From Nodosilinea nodulosa PCC 7104 (GTDB taxonomy: Bacteria > Cyanobacteriota > Cyanobacteriia > Phormidesmidales > Phormidesmidaceae): a stretch of DNA of 64,000 nucleotides. Shown here one piece after another: positions 14,441-18,091 of the stretch (within the stretch, counting starts at the first letter, position 1; each line of letters starts with the position of its first letter). The DNA lies in NCBI RefSeq assembly GCF_000309385.1, contig NZ_JH976537.1:1700214-1764213 (forward strand), in the 5' to 3' direction. The notes beneath the pieces are model-generated. The model did no database searches, was not told the origin of the DNA, and was given only the letters and a program-made list of their open reading frames with translations. The translations under genes were made by a program, and so were the position numbers.

Positions 14441-14601
14441 GGGGGATGGTTCTCCTGTGCGTTTGTGACCATCGTAACAAAGTCTTAAAATCACTTCTCA
14501 CAAAACTTTTAGATTTGGGGAGATTCCCCCTAAATATATGATGAAGCCCTGGGATCGCTAGTAGGCTGCGGCGTGATTTTATTGACCATGGCCGATCGCA
14601 A

Positions 14602-14627
14602 GGGGGCCGGGGGCTAGGGGGCCAGGG
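14602..14627 (+). other. G-quadruplex motif upstream of the transposase gene
   Basis: Four G-runs in 26 bases (G5, G5, G5, G3 with spacers of 2, 3 and 3 bases) match the canonical quadruplex pattern on the plus strand. The motif lies about 65 bp upstream of the RAYT start. The next 40 bases contain a GGTAGGGTGGGCA element that resembles dispersed cyanobacterial repeats. Confidence 0.75.
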
Positions 14628-14692
14628 AAGTTGGCACGGCACCCGGTAGGGTGGGCATTGCTTCCTGGGTTATGGAGGGTTGGGTGTTTGCC

Positions 14693-15460
14693 ATGCCGCG
14701 CCAACCGCGCCAGTTTTCCCCAGGCCACTACTACCACATCACGGTTCGCTGCAACAATCGTGAGTTCCGGCTGATTCGTGACGAATGCCGCGAAATTTTG
14801 CTGTATGCCATTGACCGATGCCAGGAGAAATATGGCTTTAAGCTCTATGCCCTGTGCATCATGAGTAACCATGTGCATTACCTGCTGGAGCCGCAGCAGC
14901 CGGAGGATTTGCCTAAGATCATGCACTGGCTGAACTGGTATACGGCGATGTGTTTCAACCGGATGCTGAACCGCACCGGGCACTTTTGGGAAAAGCGATA
15001 CCACAGCACGGGCTTTGCCAATACCGACTATCGGCGAGCGCTGAATACCTTGCGATACATCCACGCCAACCCCAAGGCGGCGAACATGCAGCAGGGATTC
15101 TTTTATGACTACAGCAACTATGGCAGCTATGACCGCCTGACCACCGATGGCCTAACGCAATGGCACCCGGCGTTTTTGGCGTTGGGAGCAACGCTAGAAC
15201 TGTGTGCGGCGGCGTACCGCAAGTTTTGTCAGCGCTATAAGCCGAAACCCAAGCCAGAGAGGCGAAATCACTGGGGCAGCAAAAAACTGGCGGCCCTGCG
15301 GCAAAAAATGAAAGTCCGCAAACCCAGCCCTGGGCAAAAGAGCCTTTGGAAGGTGTGGAATGCGCCGCTAGAAGAGGTGCAAGAAGTGGCTAAGGCATTT
15401 GTGCTGGCGAACTGCCTAAACCCAGATATTGTCAGCGCCAGATTTGAGAACTCGACCTGA
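14693..15460 (+). CDS. RAYT / IS200-like Y1 transposase
   Basis: The 255-residue protein is a REP-associated tyrosine transposase-type enzyme (transposase_17/Y1 superfamily). It has the HUH-type metal motif H60-V-H62 (in SNHVHYLLEP) after the conserved GHYYHITVRCNNR strand. Y83 is a candidate catalytic tyrosine, and the GHFWEKRYHSTG motif typical of RAYTs is present. Such enzymes cut single-stranded DNA at hairpins and spread REP-type repeats. An ATG at 14651 is in frame, but the family start MPRQPRQF is at 14693. No flanking inverted ends of an IS200 element are visible, which suits a RAYT rather than a full IS. Confidence 0.85.
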   Translation: MPRQPRQFSPGHYYHITVRCNNREFRLIRDECREILLYAIDRCQEKYGFKLYALCIMSNHVHYLLEPQQPEDLPKIMHWLNWYTAMCFNRMLNRTGHFWEKRYHSTGFANTDYRRALNTLRYIHANPKAANMQQGFFYDYSNYGSYDRLTTDGLTQWHPAFLALGATLELCAAAYRKFCQRYKPKPKPERRNHWGSKKLAALRQKMKVRKPSPGQKSLWKVWNAPLEEVQEVAKAFVLANCLNPDIVSARFENST

Positions 15461-15549
15461 CCGCTGGTGCCAGGTAAGGGATCTCCGAAACGCTTAGTTT
15501 TCCGTGGGGAGGGTGTCTGAAATAGTTCTTTTGGATCGGGCTGAAGCGC

Positions 15550-16596
15550 TTATCTGCTACAGTTTACAAGTCTCGATGCGAGAGAAGAGACACGCCCCCA
15601 TCCACCCCCCACGCCCACCCACACCCCAACCCAAAACACCACCCACCGACCAGACCAACCACAAAGAAACGGAAATTCAGCGGGAGATAAAGAGGGGTTT
15701 GCTTGTAGGTCTTTGTAGCTCAGATAGTTGCCTGCCTTGCGCCAGCCGACGCGATCGCAAAACTCTTGCCAAATTTTATCACCTGGGTATTTGCCGTCGA
15801 GCTTGGCTCCGCAGTCTACATAAATTTTCTTTTGCACGCTAAAGCCAAACTTGCCGTGGCTGTACTTCACCCATAATCGGTCTATTGTCAGCAGGTCTGT
15901 GCAGGGAAAATTTAGCAGTTCATCGCTAGTAAACCAATCCCCCGACTTTTTGCCCACGGCCAGAATCATTTTTTCGTAGGTTTCGCTATCTGCCTCGCGC
16001 CATTGGCCAGCCTTTAGCAAGTCGCGCAGGTTGCGGTAATCAATTCCTTTTTCAGAACTCAGGTCGTCTTCTGGGGCAGAGGGTAGAGCAACAGGCGGTG
16101 AGATGGGCGGTGCCGACCCTGCGGGACGTTGGCCTGAAGTATCGCTCGATGTTTGGGAAGTGCCGTATTGTCGGGTGGGCCTGCGTTGGGTGATGCCCCA
16201 CTCTAGAAAATACAGAGCCTTCTCGTCTTCGATACTGTCTTGAAACGAGACGGCATGAAACTCTTGAAGAAAAATGAGTTCTTCTGGAATCTCCTCTACC
16301 CCTGGCAGCAGCACCGGAATAATGGGAATATCGCGCTTGACACACTGGCTAATGAAGGATCTTAGCTCTAGCGCCTGCCAGCGCCCTAGCCCGCCATGAC
16401 CAAAAAAGATCGCTGCCGTTTTGATGCGCCCGATCGCCTGCTGAATCTCGTCTTGAAATTTGGTGCCGGGGACAATTTCTTCTTCATCGAGCCAGGGGTG
16501 CAGGCCCAGGTCTGCTAACTTGCGGTAGATGCGGCGAATCAGCGGTTTGTCTTTGCTGCTGTGGGCCAAAAAAACATCAAACTGCTGCTCCGTCAT
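15550..16596 (-). CDS. TIR-GUN4 fusion protein
   Basis: The 348-residue protein joins an N-terminal TIR domain (about 5-135) to a GUN4 domain (about 186-315) by a Ser/Pro/Gly-rich linker (about 140-183). The TIR part starts FDVFLAHSSKDKPLI and has the RWQALELRSF stretch with E77, the place of the catalytic glutamate in NAD-cleaving TIRs. The GUN4 part is clear: DYRNLRDLLKAGQWREAD, then ENFPCTDL-like LNFPCTDLLTIDRLWVKYS, then GKFGFSVQKKIY and DRVGWR. GUN4 binds porphyrins and stimulates Mg-chelatase. The last 30 or so residues (Trp/Val/Gly-rich) are encoded by a G-rich tract and do not look like GUN4. It converges on the RAYT gene, 89 bp away. A stress or defence role is inferred. Confidence 0.88.
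   Translation of the reverse strand: MTEQQFDVFLAHSSKDKPLIRRIYRKLADLGLHPWLDEEEIVPGTKFQDEIQQAIGRIKTAAIFFGHGGLGRWQALELRSFISQCVKRDIPIIPVLLPGVEEIPEELIFLQEFHAVSFQDSIEDEKALYFLEWGITQRRPTRQYGTSQTSSDTSGQRPAGSAPPISPPVALPSAPEDDLSSEKGIDYRNLRDLLKAGQWREADSETYEKMILAVGKKSGDWFTSDELLNFPCTDLLTIDRLWVKYSHGKFGFSVQKKIYVDCGAKLDGKYPGDKIWQEFCDRVGWRKAGNYLSYKDLQANPSLSPAEFPFLCGWSGRWVVFWVGVWVGVGGGWGRVSSLASRLVNCSR
15593..15660. repeat. C-rich tract (G-rich on the coding strand) in the 3' end of the TIR-GUN4 gene
   Basis: About 68 bp on the plus strand are nearly all C and A (units like CCACCC, CACCC and CCCCATCC). On the minus strand this gives repeated GGGTGGG runs, also suited to quadruplex formation. It encodes the odd Trp/Val/Gly-rich tail of the protein. 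It resembles the C-rich tracts at 5053-5142 and 51629-51661. Confidence 0.6.
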
Positions 16597-16756
16597 CGAT
16601 CGCTTGCCCCGCTGGCGTTAGCCCTTGCCTACCCAGAGTTTAGCCCGAATCGCTAACCCTGTCCTGGCCAAGCCTGGTTGAGTGCTTGCGCTGGGGCAAA
16701 GCAACCTCGCGCTTTAGCCTATGGTATTCGCAAGCTCAGAAAAACTGTGGCTCGGA

Positions 16757-16790
16757 CAGTGCCTAGAATGGGGCCAGAGCTGCGATCGCC
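16757..16790 (+). promoter_or_regulatory. Shared leader element, copy 1
   Basis: CAGTGC, then CTAGAATGGGG, then TGCGATCGCC, lies about 50 bp upstream of the DUF4258 gene. The same series recurs at 17428-17466 upstream of xisH. TAGAAT could serve as a -10 box. The element may be a promoter copied with the modules; this is inference. Confidence 0.4.
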
Positions 16791-16840
16791 TGACTTCAAT
16801 GGCCAAGCTTGCTGCGAGAGGTGGGGGACGGAGTGTCAAA

Positions 16841-17140
16841 ATGGATGTAGAAGAGATAAGGGCCAAGATTCGTAATGATACCTATGTGTATACATCCCAC
16901 GCCGATATAGAGCGCCAGGCCGACGATCTGACCTTGATGCAGGTAGAAGAAGCTCTATTGAATGGAGAGGTTTTAGAACAATATGCGGATACAGGGCGCG
17001 GTGAAAGCTGTCTGATTTTGGGCTATTCCAGCGATTTGCCTATCCATATTGTCTGCGGCTGGAGGGGTGAACAAGTAGCCATCATCACTATCTATATCCC
17101 TGGGCCACCCAAGTTTATCGATCCACAAACGAGGGCTTGA
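16841..17140 (+). CDS. DUF4258 protein, probable toxin of a toxin-antitoxin pair
   Basis: The 99-residue protein has the DUF4258 pattern: TSHADIERQADDLTLMQVEEALLNGEVLEQY, then CLILGYSSDLPIHIVC, then VAIITIY and a Pro-rich end. DUF4258 proteins are RelE-superfamily-like small toxins. GGAG about 7 bases before the ATG at 16841 supports this start over the longer frame from 16721. It is followed after 3 bp by a YgiT-type zinc-finger gene, the usual antitoxin partner. Confidence 0.8.
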   Translation: MDVEEIRAKIRNDTYVYTSHADIERQADDLTLMQVEEALLNGEVLEQYADTGRGESCLILGYSSDLPIHIVCGWRGEQVAIITIYIPGPPKFIDPQTRA

Positions 17141-17143
17141 CCG

Positions 17144-17389
17144 ATGCGAGAGATTAAATGCAACGCCTGCGGCAGCACCGAATATGAAGAACGTCGCGTC
17201 ACTTATTTGTATAGTCACAAAGGGCAGTATCTCATTGCGCCCAACACTCCGGTAGAGGTTTGTAGTCGCTGCGGTACTCTGTACTACAGCGCCGAGGTAC
17301 TCAAAGCGATTGAGCGCCAGTTTTTCGCTATCCACAACAACACAGCTAGTCCAGACCAATTTCTTCAGGTGCCAGTCAAGTCGATGTGA
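17144..17389 (+). CDS. YgiT-type zinc-finger antitoxin (MqsA N-domain-like)
   Basis: The 81-residue protein has two CxxC pairs, C6-N-A-C9 and C40-S-R-C43, that should bind one zinc, as in the N-terminal domain of MqsA/YgiT. There is no helix-turn-helix, so it probably neutralises its partner without the DNA-binding module of MqsA. It begins 3 bp after the DUF4258 gene, making a typical toxin-first operon. Both genes look intact. Confidence 0.82.
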   Translation: MREIKCNACGSTEYEERRVTYLYSHKGQYLIAPNTPVEVCSRCGTLYYSAEVLKAIERQFFAIHNNTASPDQFLQVPVKSM

Positions 17390-17427
17390 TGGGCTATGCA
17401 TTCGCCTTATTTGGTGGCGATGGGCAT

Positions 17428-17466
17428 CAGTGCAGCTTCTAGAATGGGGTTGGAATTGCGATCGCC
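17428..17466 (+). promoter_or_regulatory. Shared leader element, copy 2
   Basis: This repeat of the element at 16757-16790 (CAGTGC, CTAGAATGGGG, TGCGATCGCC) ends 13 bp before the xisH start. The spacing between CAGTGC and CTAGAAT is 5 bases longer than in copy 1. It overlaps the tail region after the YgiT gene. Confidence 0.4.
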
Positions 17467-17479
17467 TCTCCCATACCCC

Positions 17480-17720
17480 ATGGCCGCCAAAGACCTGGTT
17501 CACGATGCCGTCAAACGCGCCCTCGAAAAAGACGGCTGGACGATTACTGATGATCCACTATTTCTGCGCTTTGGTGGGCTAGAGATGTACATCGACTCCG
17601 ATGGATACCTACCGCGATTTCTTTACGCTGGAATTGCCACGGTTGCTGGTTGAGCGCTACCACGTGCACCTAATTGTCTACGATCCAGAGGAGGAGGTGA
17701 TCACCAAATGGCAGACGTAA
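17480..17720 (+). pseudogene. xisH: xisH, internally deleted and frameshifted
   Basis: The first 39 codons read as the XisH family start (MAAKDLVHDAVKRALEKDG and onward to FGGLEMYID). The frame then runs into unrelated residues and stops at 17653. From about 17600 another frame gives the family C-terminus (DTYRDFFTLELPRLLVERY, then YDPEEEVITKWQT), ending at TAA 17718-17720. Normal XisH has about 138 residues, so about 60 residues, including the nuclease-like core, are missing. The end overlaps the xisI start by 13 bp, as in intact pairs. XisH is one of the proteins needed for fdxN-element excision in heterocystous strains, but homologues occur widely with unknown roles. Confidence 0.88.
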
Positions 17721-18091
17721 ACTACTACCGCCAGCTCGTTCAAGAGCTGTTGCAGAAATATAGCAACATCAGAGCCAGCAACGAAGCGGTTGAAGCTGAG
17801 GCAATTTTTGACCTTCAGCGCGATCGCTACCGGGTCGTCCATGTAGGCTGGTCAAACAAGCGCCGGGTCTACGGCTGCGTGCTGCACCTCAAAATCAAAG
17901 ACGGCAAAATCTGGATTCAGCACGACGGCACCGAGGGCGGCATCGCCAACGAACTGGTCGATTCCGGAACGGATACTCGTTTCGAGTCGGTTCCCGAACG
18001 CTGCGCGAATCGCGGCGTGCCCAAGCACGACATTGTGCTGGGGTTTCACTCGCCCTTTAAACGCCAGTTTACCGAGTTTGCCTTGGGTTAA
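17708..18091 (+). CDS. xisI: XisI family protein with an in-frame insertion
   Basis: The 127-residue protein matches XisI: YYRQLVQELLQKYS, FDLQRDRYRVVHVGW, RRVYGCVLHLKIKDGKIWIQ, and a C-terminal VPKHDIVLGFHSPFKRQFTEFA. Between ANELVD and GVPKHD lies a stretch of about 17 residues (SGTDTRFESVPERCANR) where family members have one or two. The frame is kept. The DNA of that stretch (17963-18013) contains an imperfect inverted repeat. XisI is thought to work with XisH, whose gene is broken here, so the protein may be non-functional. Confidence 0.88.
   Translation: MADVNYYRQLVQELLQKYSNIRASNEAVEAEAIFDLQRDRYRVVHVGWSNKRRVYGCVLHLKIKDGKIWIQHDGTEGGIANELVDSGTDTRFESVPERCANRGVPKHDIVLGFHSPFKRQFTEFALG
17963..18013. 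repeat. Short palindromic insertion inside xisI
   Basis: About 51 bp are extra relative to the family. They include ACTCG-TTT-CGAGT and flanking GGAAC/GTTCC, forming a bulged hairpin (17966-17994). The length is a multiple of three, so the reading frame survives. Confidence 0.5.

Follow-up and report, generated by a model that had tools for sequence, protein, structure and literature searches.

The TIR-GUN4 gene of Nodosilinea nodulosa PCC 7104 probably belongs to a large family of cyanobacterial genes for effector-GUN4 proteins, in which diversification at the level of the DNA acts on the C-terminal tail. The proteins of this family link an effector head (TIR, kinase, caspase, trypsin, or NACHT) to GUN4, and the coding sequence closes with an element that is conserved as DNA in all frames. 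Between GUN4 and the element lies a hypervariable region (VR), whose sequence and length are replaced outright between flanks that are otherwise similar or nearly identical. The window is the whole stretch of DNA that was analyzed, 64,000 nucleotides of contig NZ_JH976537.1, and unprefixed positions refer to it.

The TIR-GUN4 protein and its neighborhood

The gene is an open reading frame with an ATG start on the minus strand (15550–16596) and encodes 348 amino acids. A Pfam search clearly identified two domains, both above the curated cut-offs. TIR_2 (PF13676) covers residues 8–126 (16219–16575, minus strand; E 6.2e-18, 65.9 bits against a cut-off of 28), and GUN4 (PF05419) covers residues 181–319 (E 1.7e-35, 122.6 bits against a cut-off of 29.2). 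The first-pass annotation had proposed that the two are fused in one chain, and the profiles bear this out. Solved GUN4 structures align to the GUN4 part in phmmer (E about 1e-14), and TIR structures align weakly to the TIR part. The AlphaFold model was built from four sequences and is of low confidence (mean pLDDT 47.8); in blocks of ten residues the pLDDT is 55–80 over the TIR part and below 50, which is unusable, over the GUN4 part. The best PDB matches of this model are TIR folds (IL-18Rbeta, SARM1, AbTir, and TLR1; E about 1e-4). Structure prediction thus recovered the TIR fold and gave no confident model for GUN4. Comparison of 95 sites places the end of the conserved GUN4 part at residue 309 (residues 181–309; 15670–16056, minus strand), where AEFP is the equivalent of a GHLP motif. 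The last 39 residues (310–348) are the VR and a three-frame stop element.

Glu77 had been singled out as a candidate NADase glutamate. Its codon (GAG, 16366–16368, minus strand) lies four residues after W73. A glutamate is aligned at this position in all 21 TIR-type VR-bearing proteins, and the position of W73 is a tryptophan in 20 of them and a phenylalanine in one. Glu77 keeps its place as a candidate catalytic residue, and by analogy with the TIR family the protein may cleave NAD+.

Matches to known defence systems were set aside. The PADLOC profile PD-T4-6 (PDLC04062, E 2.5e-39) is matched by residues 179–347 over positions 303–448 of 450 only, and its kinase part is unmatched. The profile seems to end in a GUN4-like segment, and a hit to it can give cyanobacterial GUN4 proteins a false defence label. 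Matches to Thoeris ThsB are local to the TIR domain (best E 1.1e-4), with no match over the whole profile, and the match to a retron/TIR system is likewise local to the TIR domain.

Relatives of this TIR head are also found in front of a different C-terminal region (L042:6001-7074, L043:3500-4435, L051:1051-2010, and L058:4234-5190, the last from the same genome as the window). The identity of the TIR head is 82% in L042 and L043, and the alternative C-terminal region has no specific Pfam match. The differing C-terminal regions presumably represent sensor swapping.

The gene had been described as lying between a transposase and toxin–antitoxin genes, and neighbors of both kinds are present. 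A Y1 transposase gene occupies 14651–15460. On the other side, a DUF4258 gene and a gene for a YgiT/MqsA-type zinc finger (16721–17389) are a likely toxin–antitoxin pair. Beyond these, an XisH gene that is cut short (profile positions 1–39 of 134) adjoins an XisI gene (profile positions 1–88 of 110) at 17396–18091. The transposase context is in fact more specific than first described, as this Y1 subfamily is often found at the 3′ ends of GUN4 genes.

The variable tail and the conserved 3′ element

One 3′-end layout recurs: GUN4 up to a GHLP-like motif, then the VR, then the conserved DNA element. In the window, the VR is 80 nt long (15590–15669, minus strand), is 92.5% G+T, and encodes FLCGWSGRWVVFWVGVWVGVGGGWGR and part of the next codon. 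The element behind it (15550–15589, minus strand) is read as SSLASRLVNCSR-stop. It contains a small hairpin (TCTCG-CAT-CGAGA) and a stop codon in each of the three frames (15564–15566, 15557–15559, and 15550–15552), and its 26-nt core (15560–15585) has no mismatches. Comparison of downstream regions extends the element on the 3′ side (15466–15549, minus strand) to a marker, TACCTGGCACC (15466–15476), just past the stop codon of the Y1 gene. The element DNA is roughly TCTTCTCTCGCRTCGAGACTTGTAAACTGTAACAT.TAA, which is read in different genes as SSLASRLVNCNI, LFSRIETCKL, or LLSRRDL.

The element core is present in 28 of 30 genomes in a sample chosen as GUN4-rich, and a reversed-pattern control found none (up to three mismatches). 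A broader sample gave the element in 55 of 386 genomes and 28 of 143 genera, again with none for the control. In the fetched loci, with up to five substitutions, GUN4 is directly in front (within 600 nt upstream) at 95 of 105 unique element sites. The other ten include two with GHLP-like remnants (L129 and L158), one behind a kinase segment (L139), and one that may be a chance match (L122). The phase of the element relative to GUN4 is spread over the three frames (35, 33, and 27 of the 95 sites). Its stops lie at +19, +26, and +33, 7 nt apart, so that translation ends in the element whichever frame is used. All three are kept at 71 of the 95 sites. Of 122 unused stops beyond the search pattern, 109 are retained (61 of 62 at +26 and 48 of 60 at +33), with exchange between TAA and TAG, and the diverged element of Cylindrospermopsis retains the design TAG-N4-TAA-N4-TAA. 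The hairpin is intact at 64 of the 95 sites and none was seen by eye in the Cylindrospermopsis element, which weakens the notion that it is the sole recognition site of the Y1 enzyme. The element DNA folds no better than its shuffles (z of 1.12, 0.16, and −0.77), and Rfam gave no structured-RNA match in 14500–17000 at E up to 1. A blastn search with 121 nt found no element on PLSDB plasmids, where diverged elements do exist, and GUN4 had no match in the phage collection.

Heads were assigned with Pfam for 80 VR-bearing proteins. Of 91 unique proteins 78 are complete, and 77 of these were used, a 62-residue pseudogene being left out; three longer re-fetched copies make up the 80. The heads are Pkinase in 35, TIR_2 in 21, caspase in 7, and NACHT in 2. 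A Cylindrospermopsis plasmid carries trypsin-GUN4 proteins as well as a GUN4 gene adjoining a MoxR ATPase gene, and a Calothrix plasmid carries an EAD1-CHAT-GUN4 protein. Such signaling and conflict-type heads support an immune role, although they are not proof of one. The genome of the window itself has ten GUN4 matches. Across the phylum, 187 of 386 genomes match the TIR-GUN4 query at E up to 1e-5; among the matches listed, it is mostly the GUN4 part alone that is matched.

The VR starts exactly at the segment where canonical GUN4 has its bilin-contact motif, LxNxLR. This motif directly follows GHLP in Synechocystis Gun4 (PDB ID: 1y6i; GHLPLLNQLRGV, LLNQLR) and in the ortholog-like GUN4 copy of the same genome as the window (GHLPLSNQLRGV, LSNQLR). 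TIR-GUN4 shares sequence homology with the canonical proteins (1y6i and 1z3x) up to GHLP, but has the VR where these have LxNxLR and the segment behind it. A loose [LIVM]x[NDS]x[LIVM]R pattern occurs anywhere in 2 of 88 tails scored, and the tail in the window is not among the two. With LxNxLR after GHLP as the mark of a GUN4 ortholog that serves as Mg-chelatase cofactor, TIR-GUN4 falls outside that group.

The consulted sections of Kaur et al. 2020 (PMC7159879) describe single-chain fusions of GUN4 to kinases, caspases, trypsin, and TIR and propose that tetrapyrroles regulate them. These are the same domain fusions and the same idea of a regulated effector as here; the fusion is therefore not new. 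A hypervariable GUN4 tail, a three-frame stop element, and a transposase are not mentioned in those sections. The first-pass annotation had likewise suggested a switch that senses porphyrin. The consulted part of PMC10156173 places LxNxLR at the bilin, reports that an Asn-to-Gly exchange in it abolishes bilin but not porphyrin binding, and has no GUN4 paralog in its set that keeps the Asn. Because the LxNxLR segment is the hypervariable tail in this family, the idea of a conserved sensor, in which the TIR head is gated by porphyrin or bilin bound to GUN4, is weakened. We consider it quite unlikely, in spite of the clear GUN4 homology in Pfam. Since loss of the Asn spares porphyrin binding in that study, TIR-GUN4 might still bind porphyrin. 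Thus, the fusion part of the switch proposal stands, its sensor part has lost ground, and the first-pass interpretation as a whole is partly supported.

Origin of the variable regions

The VRs are 0–199 nt long, with a median of 56 nt (95 sites). Their composition was analyzed for 82 unique VRs of 15–105 nt with a recognizable boundary, out of the 95 sites. The base frequencies are G.40, T.33, A.18, and C.10, and hardly differ between codon positions 1, 2, and 3. Apart from the stops and an excess of Trp, the amino acids encoded in frame occur in proportions similar to those in the two wrong frames. In-frame stops number two among 1936 codons; the other two frames have 95 among 1904 codons and 106 among 1877. 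A stop ahead of the element is found at two of the 95 sites: at L036, where the site is the second of two tandemly duplicated elements, and at L111, where the gene is broken. None of the 82 VRs has an in-frame stop, against a mean of 47.9 and a minimum of 34 in 1000 shuffles. From the composition without codon structure and the missing in-frame stops, the VRs behave like random DNA that has been filtered for open frames. Their mean G+T content is 0.73, against 0.50 (sd 0.10) in random windows of the same loci. This G/T bias is common to loci of 32–57% GC, with a weak trend of composition with locus GC (Spearman 0.28 for G+T and 0.35 for G+C); 12 of the 82 VRs have a G+T content of 60% or less.

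Tandem GUN4-VR units within one open reading frame are seen at L092, L127, and L133. At these loci the in-frame stop of the first element is lost, and reading runs into a further GUN4 with its own VR.

Pairs of VRs were compared over 88 of the 95 sites, the seven without a boundary motif being left out. In 29 pairs (one of them the tandem element of L036) the upstream 240 nt are at least 90% identical, and the VR is shared in two. The mean VR identity in these 29 pairs is 0.51, against 0.45 for random pairs; the element core averages 0.90. The relative from Nodosilinea sp. LEGE 07298 (L041), the best of three named loci, is 75% identical overall and has a VR of 45 nt in another frame. In Cylindrospermopsis there are seven copies, five in one genome (G233) and two in another (G051). 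The right flanks are 97–100% identical over 60 nt, while all seven VRs (15–85 nt) differ, and the longest word shared between them is 9 nt. Over 120 nt, the left flanks of five copies are 94–98% identical in the ten pairs among them. The left flank of L290 is 81–82% identical to these five, and that of L292 is 49–52% identical without gaps, a short insertion shifting the comparison. Four of the five G233 copies are also found on plasmid NZ_CP060823.1 of C. curvispora GIHE-G1. Identical VRs occur between species of one genus (L069/L097, L038/L117, and L087/L186), so that VR turnover is punctuated rather than fast; variation within a culture was not observed.

Replacement of this kind brings to mind a diversity-generating retroelement (DGR), which would rewrite the VR by reverse transcription of a template repeat, with the element as its initiation-of-homing sequence. 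In its position at the 3′ end, the conserved sequence just behind it, and the effector-type heads, the VR resembles cyanobacterial DGR targets (consulted part of PMC7517822). Reverse transcriptases are present in 13 of 15 genomes tested. Of 32 reverse transcriptase loci checked, two have the motif that we take to be of the DGR type; this check is insensitive, as the other 30 had neither motif type. However, the substitutions made by a DGR are of fixed length, and the VR varies freely in length, occurs in all three phases, and breaks the frame. A plain DNA search found no second copy of the window VR in its own genome, the next best match being 31 nt at E 0.006. In two genomes (G149 and G153) RVT_1 found nothing at E up to 0.001, and yet these have five and four elements. 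For the reverse transcriptases of the window's genome the closest models are those of group II introns and retrons, and none of the 32 loci contains the element. We regard a DGR as improbable.

Exchange of VRs as cassettes by recombination from silent copies would account for the discrete replacement of whole VRs. The same search found no donor for the window VR in its genome, and the base composition without codon structure does not suit cassettes. When VRs were compared with one another and with all loci fetched (identical whole VRs and the L036 tandem element left out), the longest common stretches were 24 nt (L133/L139, likely a deletion derivative), 21, 20, and 19 nt. This explanation is very improbable.

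The neighboring Y1 transposase provides a different lead. It is a Y1 (HUH) transposase of the TnpAREP/RAYT type (14651–15460, plus strand; PF01797, E 1.4e-19, 70.8 bits) and is convergent with the TIR-GUN4 gene. The NHVH and YIHANP motifs can be read from its translation, and its score against the NCBIfam model REP_Tyr_transpos is 72.1 bits, below the cut-off of 80. A Y1 gene or remnant is convergent at 15 of the 95 element sites (two of them the L036 tandem), always with its 3′ end towards the element. The other 80 sites lack a Y1 over 1.5 kb or over the length of flank that was fetched (as short as about 740–900 nt for many). From the side of the transposase, one best locus per genome was surveyed (24 loci, L194-L217, 60–100% identity). 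GUN4 is convergent within about 510 nt in 18 of these. In another four (L210, L212, L213, and L215) the convergent gene encodes a cyanobactin-like precursor, in which PFAGDDAE or PFADDDAE follows a variable core, and two (L211 and L217) have neither GUN4 nor a precursor, L217 facing a kinase fragment. Both close Y1 copies in the genome of the window adjoin GUN4 genes. Among six distant Y1 loci (45–48% identity), L223 adjoins a prochlorosin-like precursor, and four (L218, L219, L221, and L222) are convergent with beta-barrel-like proteins that have unlike C-terminal tails after a conserved RVHD. The names cyanobactin, prochlorosin, and beta-barrel are those we take to fit these sequences; they are not profile matches. 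A transposase between artE and artF is described in the consulted part of PMC4663559.

Y1_Tnp proteins of some kind are found in all 15 genomes tested. A search at E up to 1e-20 gave no close Y1 match in some genomes with several differing VRs (for example, G245 and G072). With many sites and some genomes lacking a close Y1, the Y1 gene is either not needed in place today or not the generator. The Y1 subfamily lies beside some GUN4 3′ ends, and this is an association only.

On another reading, a Y1 mobile element inserted at the 3′ ends of GUN4 genes, and the conserved element is simply its terminus; the VR would then be an insertion scar or decayed DNA on which the sole selection is against stops. 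The element and its marker reach the Y1 stop codon in Y1-bearing loci, and Y1 remnants retain their 3′ end, as this would predict. On the other hand, the element and its unused-frame stops are kept where the Y1 gene is gone. VRs that differ outright at nearly identical flanks cannot be produced by decay at the rate of the flanks, and the G/T bias is common to loci of widely spread GC content (32–57%). We therefore consider this explanation unlikely, although it deserves some weight.

The generator of the VRs is unproven and Y1 is a candidate; with moderate confidence, we favor repair that is started by Y1 and is largely untemplated. A localized process would write a new random tail. It may be started by a strand break made by Y1 at the junction of VR and element, and it would be completed by largely untemplated, G/T-rich synthesis. 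In-frame stops in new tails would then be purged by selection. In the GUN4 fold the tail may form or cover the site for the ligand, and the ligand recognized would then differ from copy to copy. Upon recognition the TIR heads would assemble and start to cleave NAD+, which may lead to cell death or an anti-phage response.

Relation to known diversification systems

We are aware of few bacterial systems in which receptor-like segments are rewritten in place, with DGRs as the main example, and we know of no system that writes random tails free of frame. The present finding is set apart as a new kind for these reasons: the fixed length of DGR variation is not seen here, and no such writer of frame-free tails is known to us. 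We found no description of a hypervariable tail on GUN4 proteins in the literature searched. This suggests that, within that literature, the tail and the three-frame stop element are undescribed for GUN4 proteins, and that the GUN4 tails are an undescribed bacterial way of generating variable receptor-like proteins.

The cyanobacterial DGRs in the consulted part of Vallota-Eastman et al. 2020 (PMC7517822) likewise have a 3′ variable region, kinase- or caspase-headed signaling proteins, and filamentous cyanobacteria as hosts. Their targets are C-type-lectin domains, with a reverse transcriptase and a template, whereas here the target is GUN4, the length is free, and 2 of 15 genomes have no reverse transcriptase match. 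The Y1 neighbor shares its Y1_Tnp core, with NHVH and YIHANP, with the TnpAREP/RAYT class 2 HUH endonucleases in the consulted part of PMC6006769 and has two close copies in its own genome. In contrast to those enzymes, Y1 is linked here to a variable end that is protein coding. An association of TnpAREP with lanthipeptides in marine picocyanobacteria is given in a reference entry of PMC10783134 (Laurenceau et al., bioRxiv 2020.03.09.984088). By the title of this preprint, the association is prior art. There, too, a TnpAREP-type Y1 lies beside hypervariable 3′ ends, and L223 with its prochlorosin-like precursor is the counterpart in our loci. Going by the title only, that system targets lanthipeptide genes, whereas the targets here are GUN4 effector proteins. 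The novelty of the present system as a category is conditional, and it lapses if the preprint, of which the title is considered here, proposes diversification driven by Y1, or if a DGR template exists.

We tentatively put forward a wider proposal, which is possible but more doubtful than the family assignment. An HUH transposase of the TnpAREP-like type and a three-frame stop cassette would together install untemplated random tails of variable length on the ligand-facing side of GUN4-fold receptors with TIR, kinase, or caspase effectors, as a bacterial counterpart to the junctional diversification of receptors. The products would be lineage-private repertoires of cell-death or anti-phage sensors, and the same enzyme family would diversify cyanobactins, prochlorosins, and some outer-membrane proteins.

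If this is true, a system that gives TIR, kinase, and caspase proteins random tails in any frame and of any length, together with a built-in stop cassette, would represent a new principle, with a logic close to that of N-region addition in vertebrate receptors. It would tie in the hypervariability of cyanobactins and prochlorosins. It would also explain the loss of the bilin motif in GUN4 paralogs and would suggest a function for domesticated Y1 transposases.
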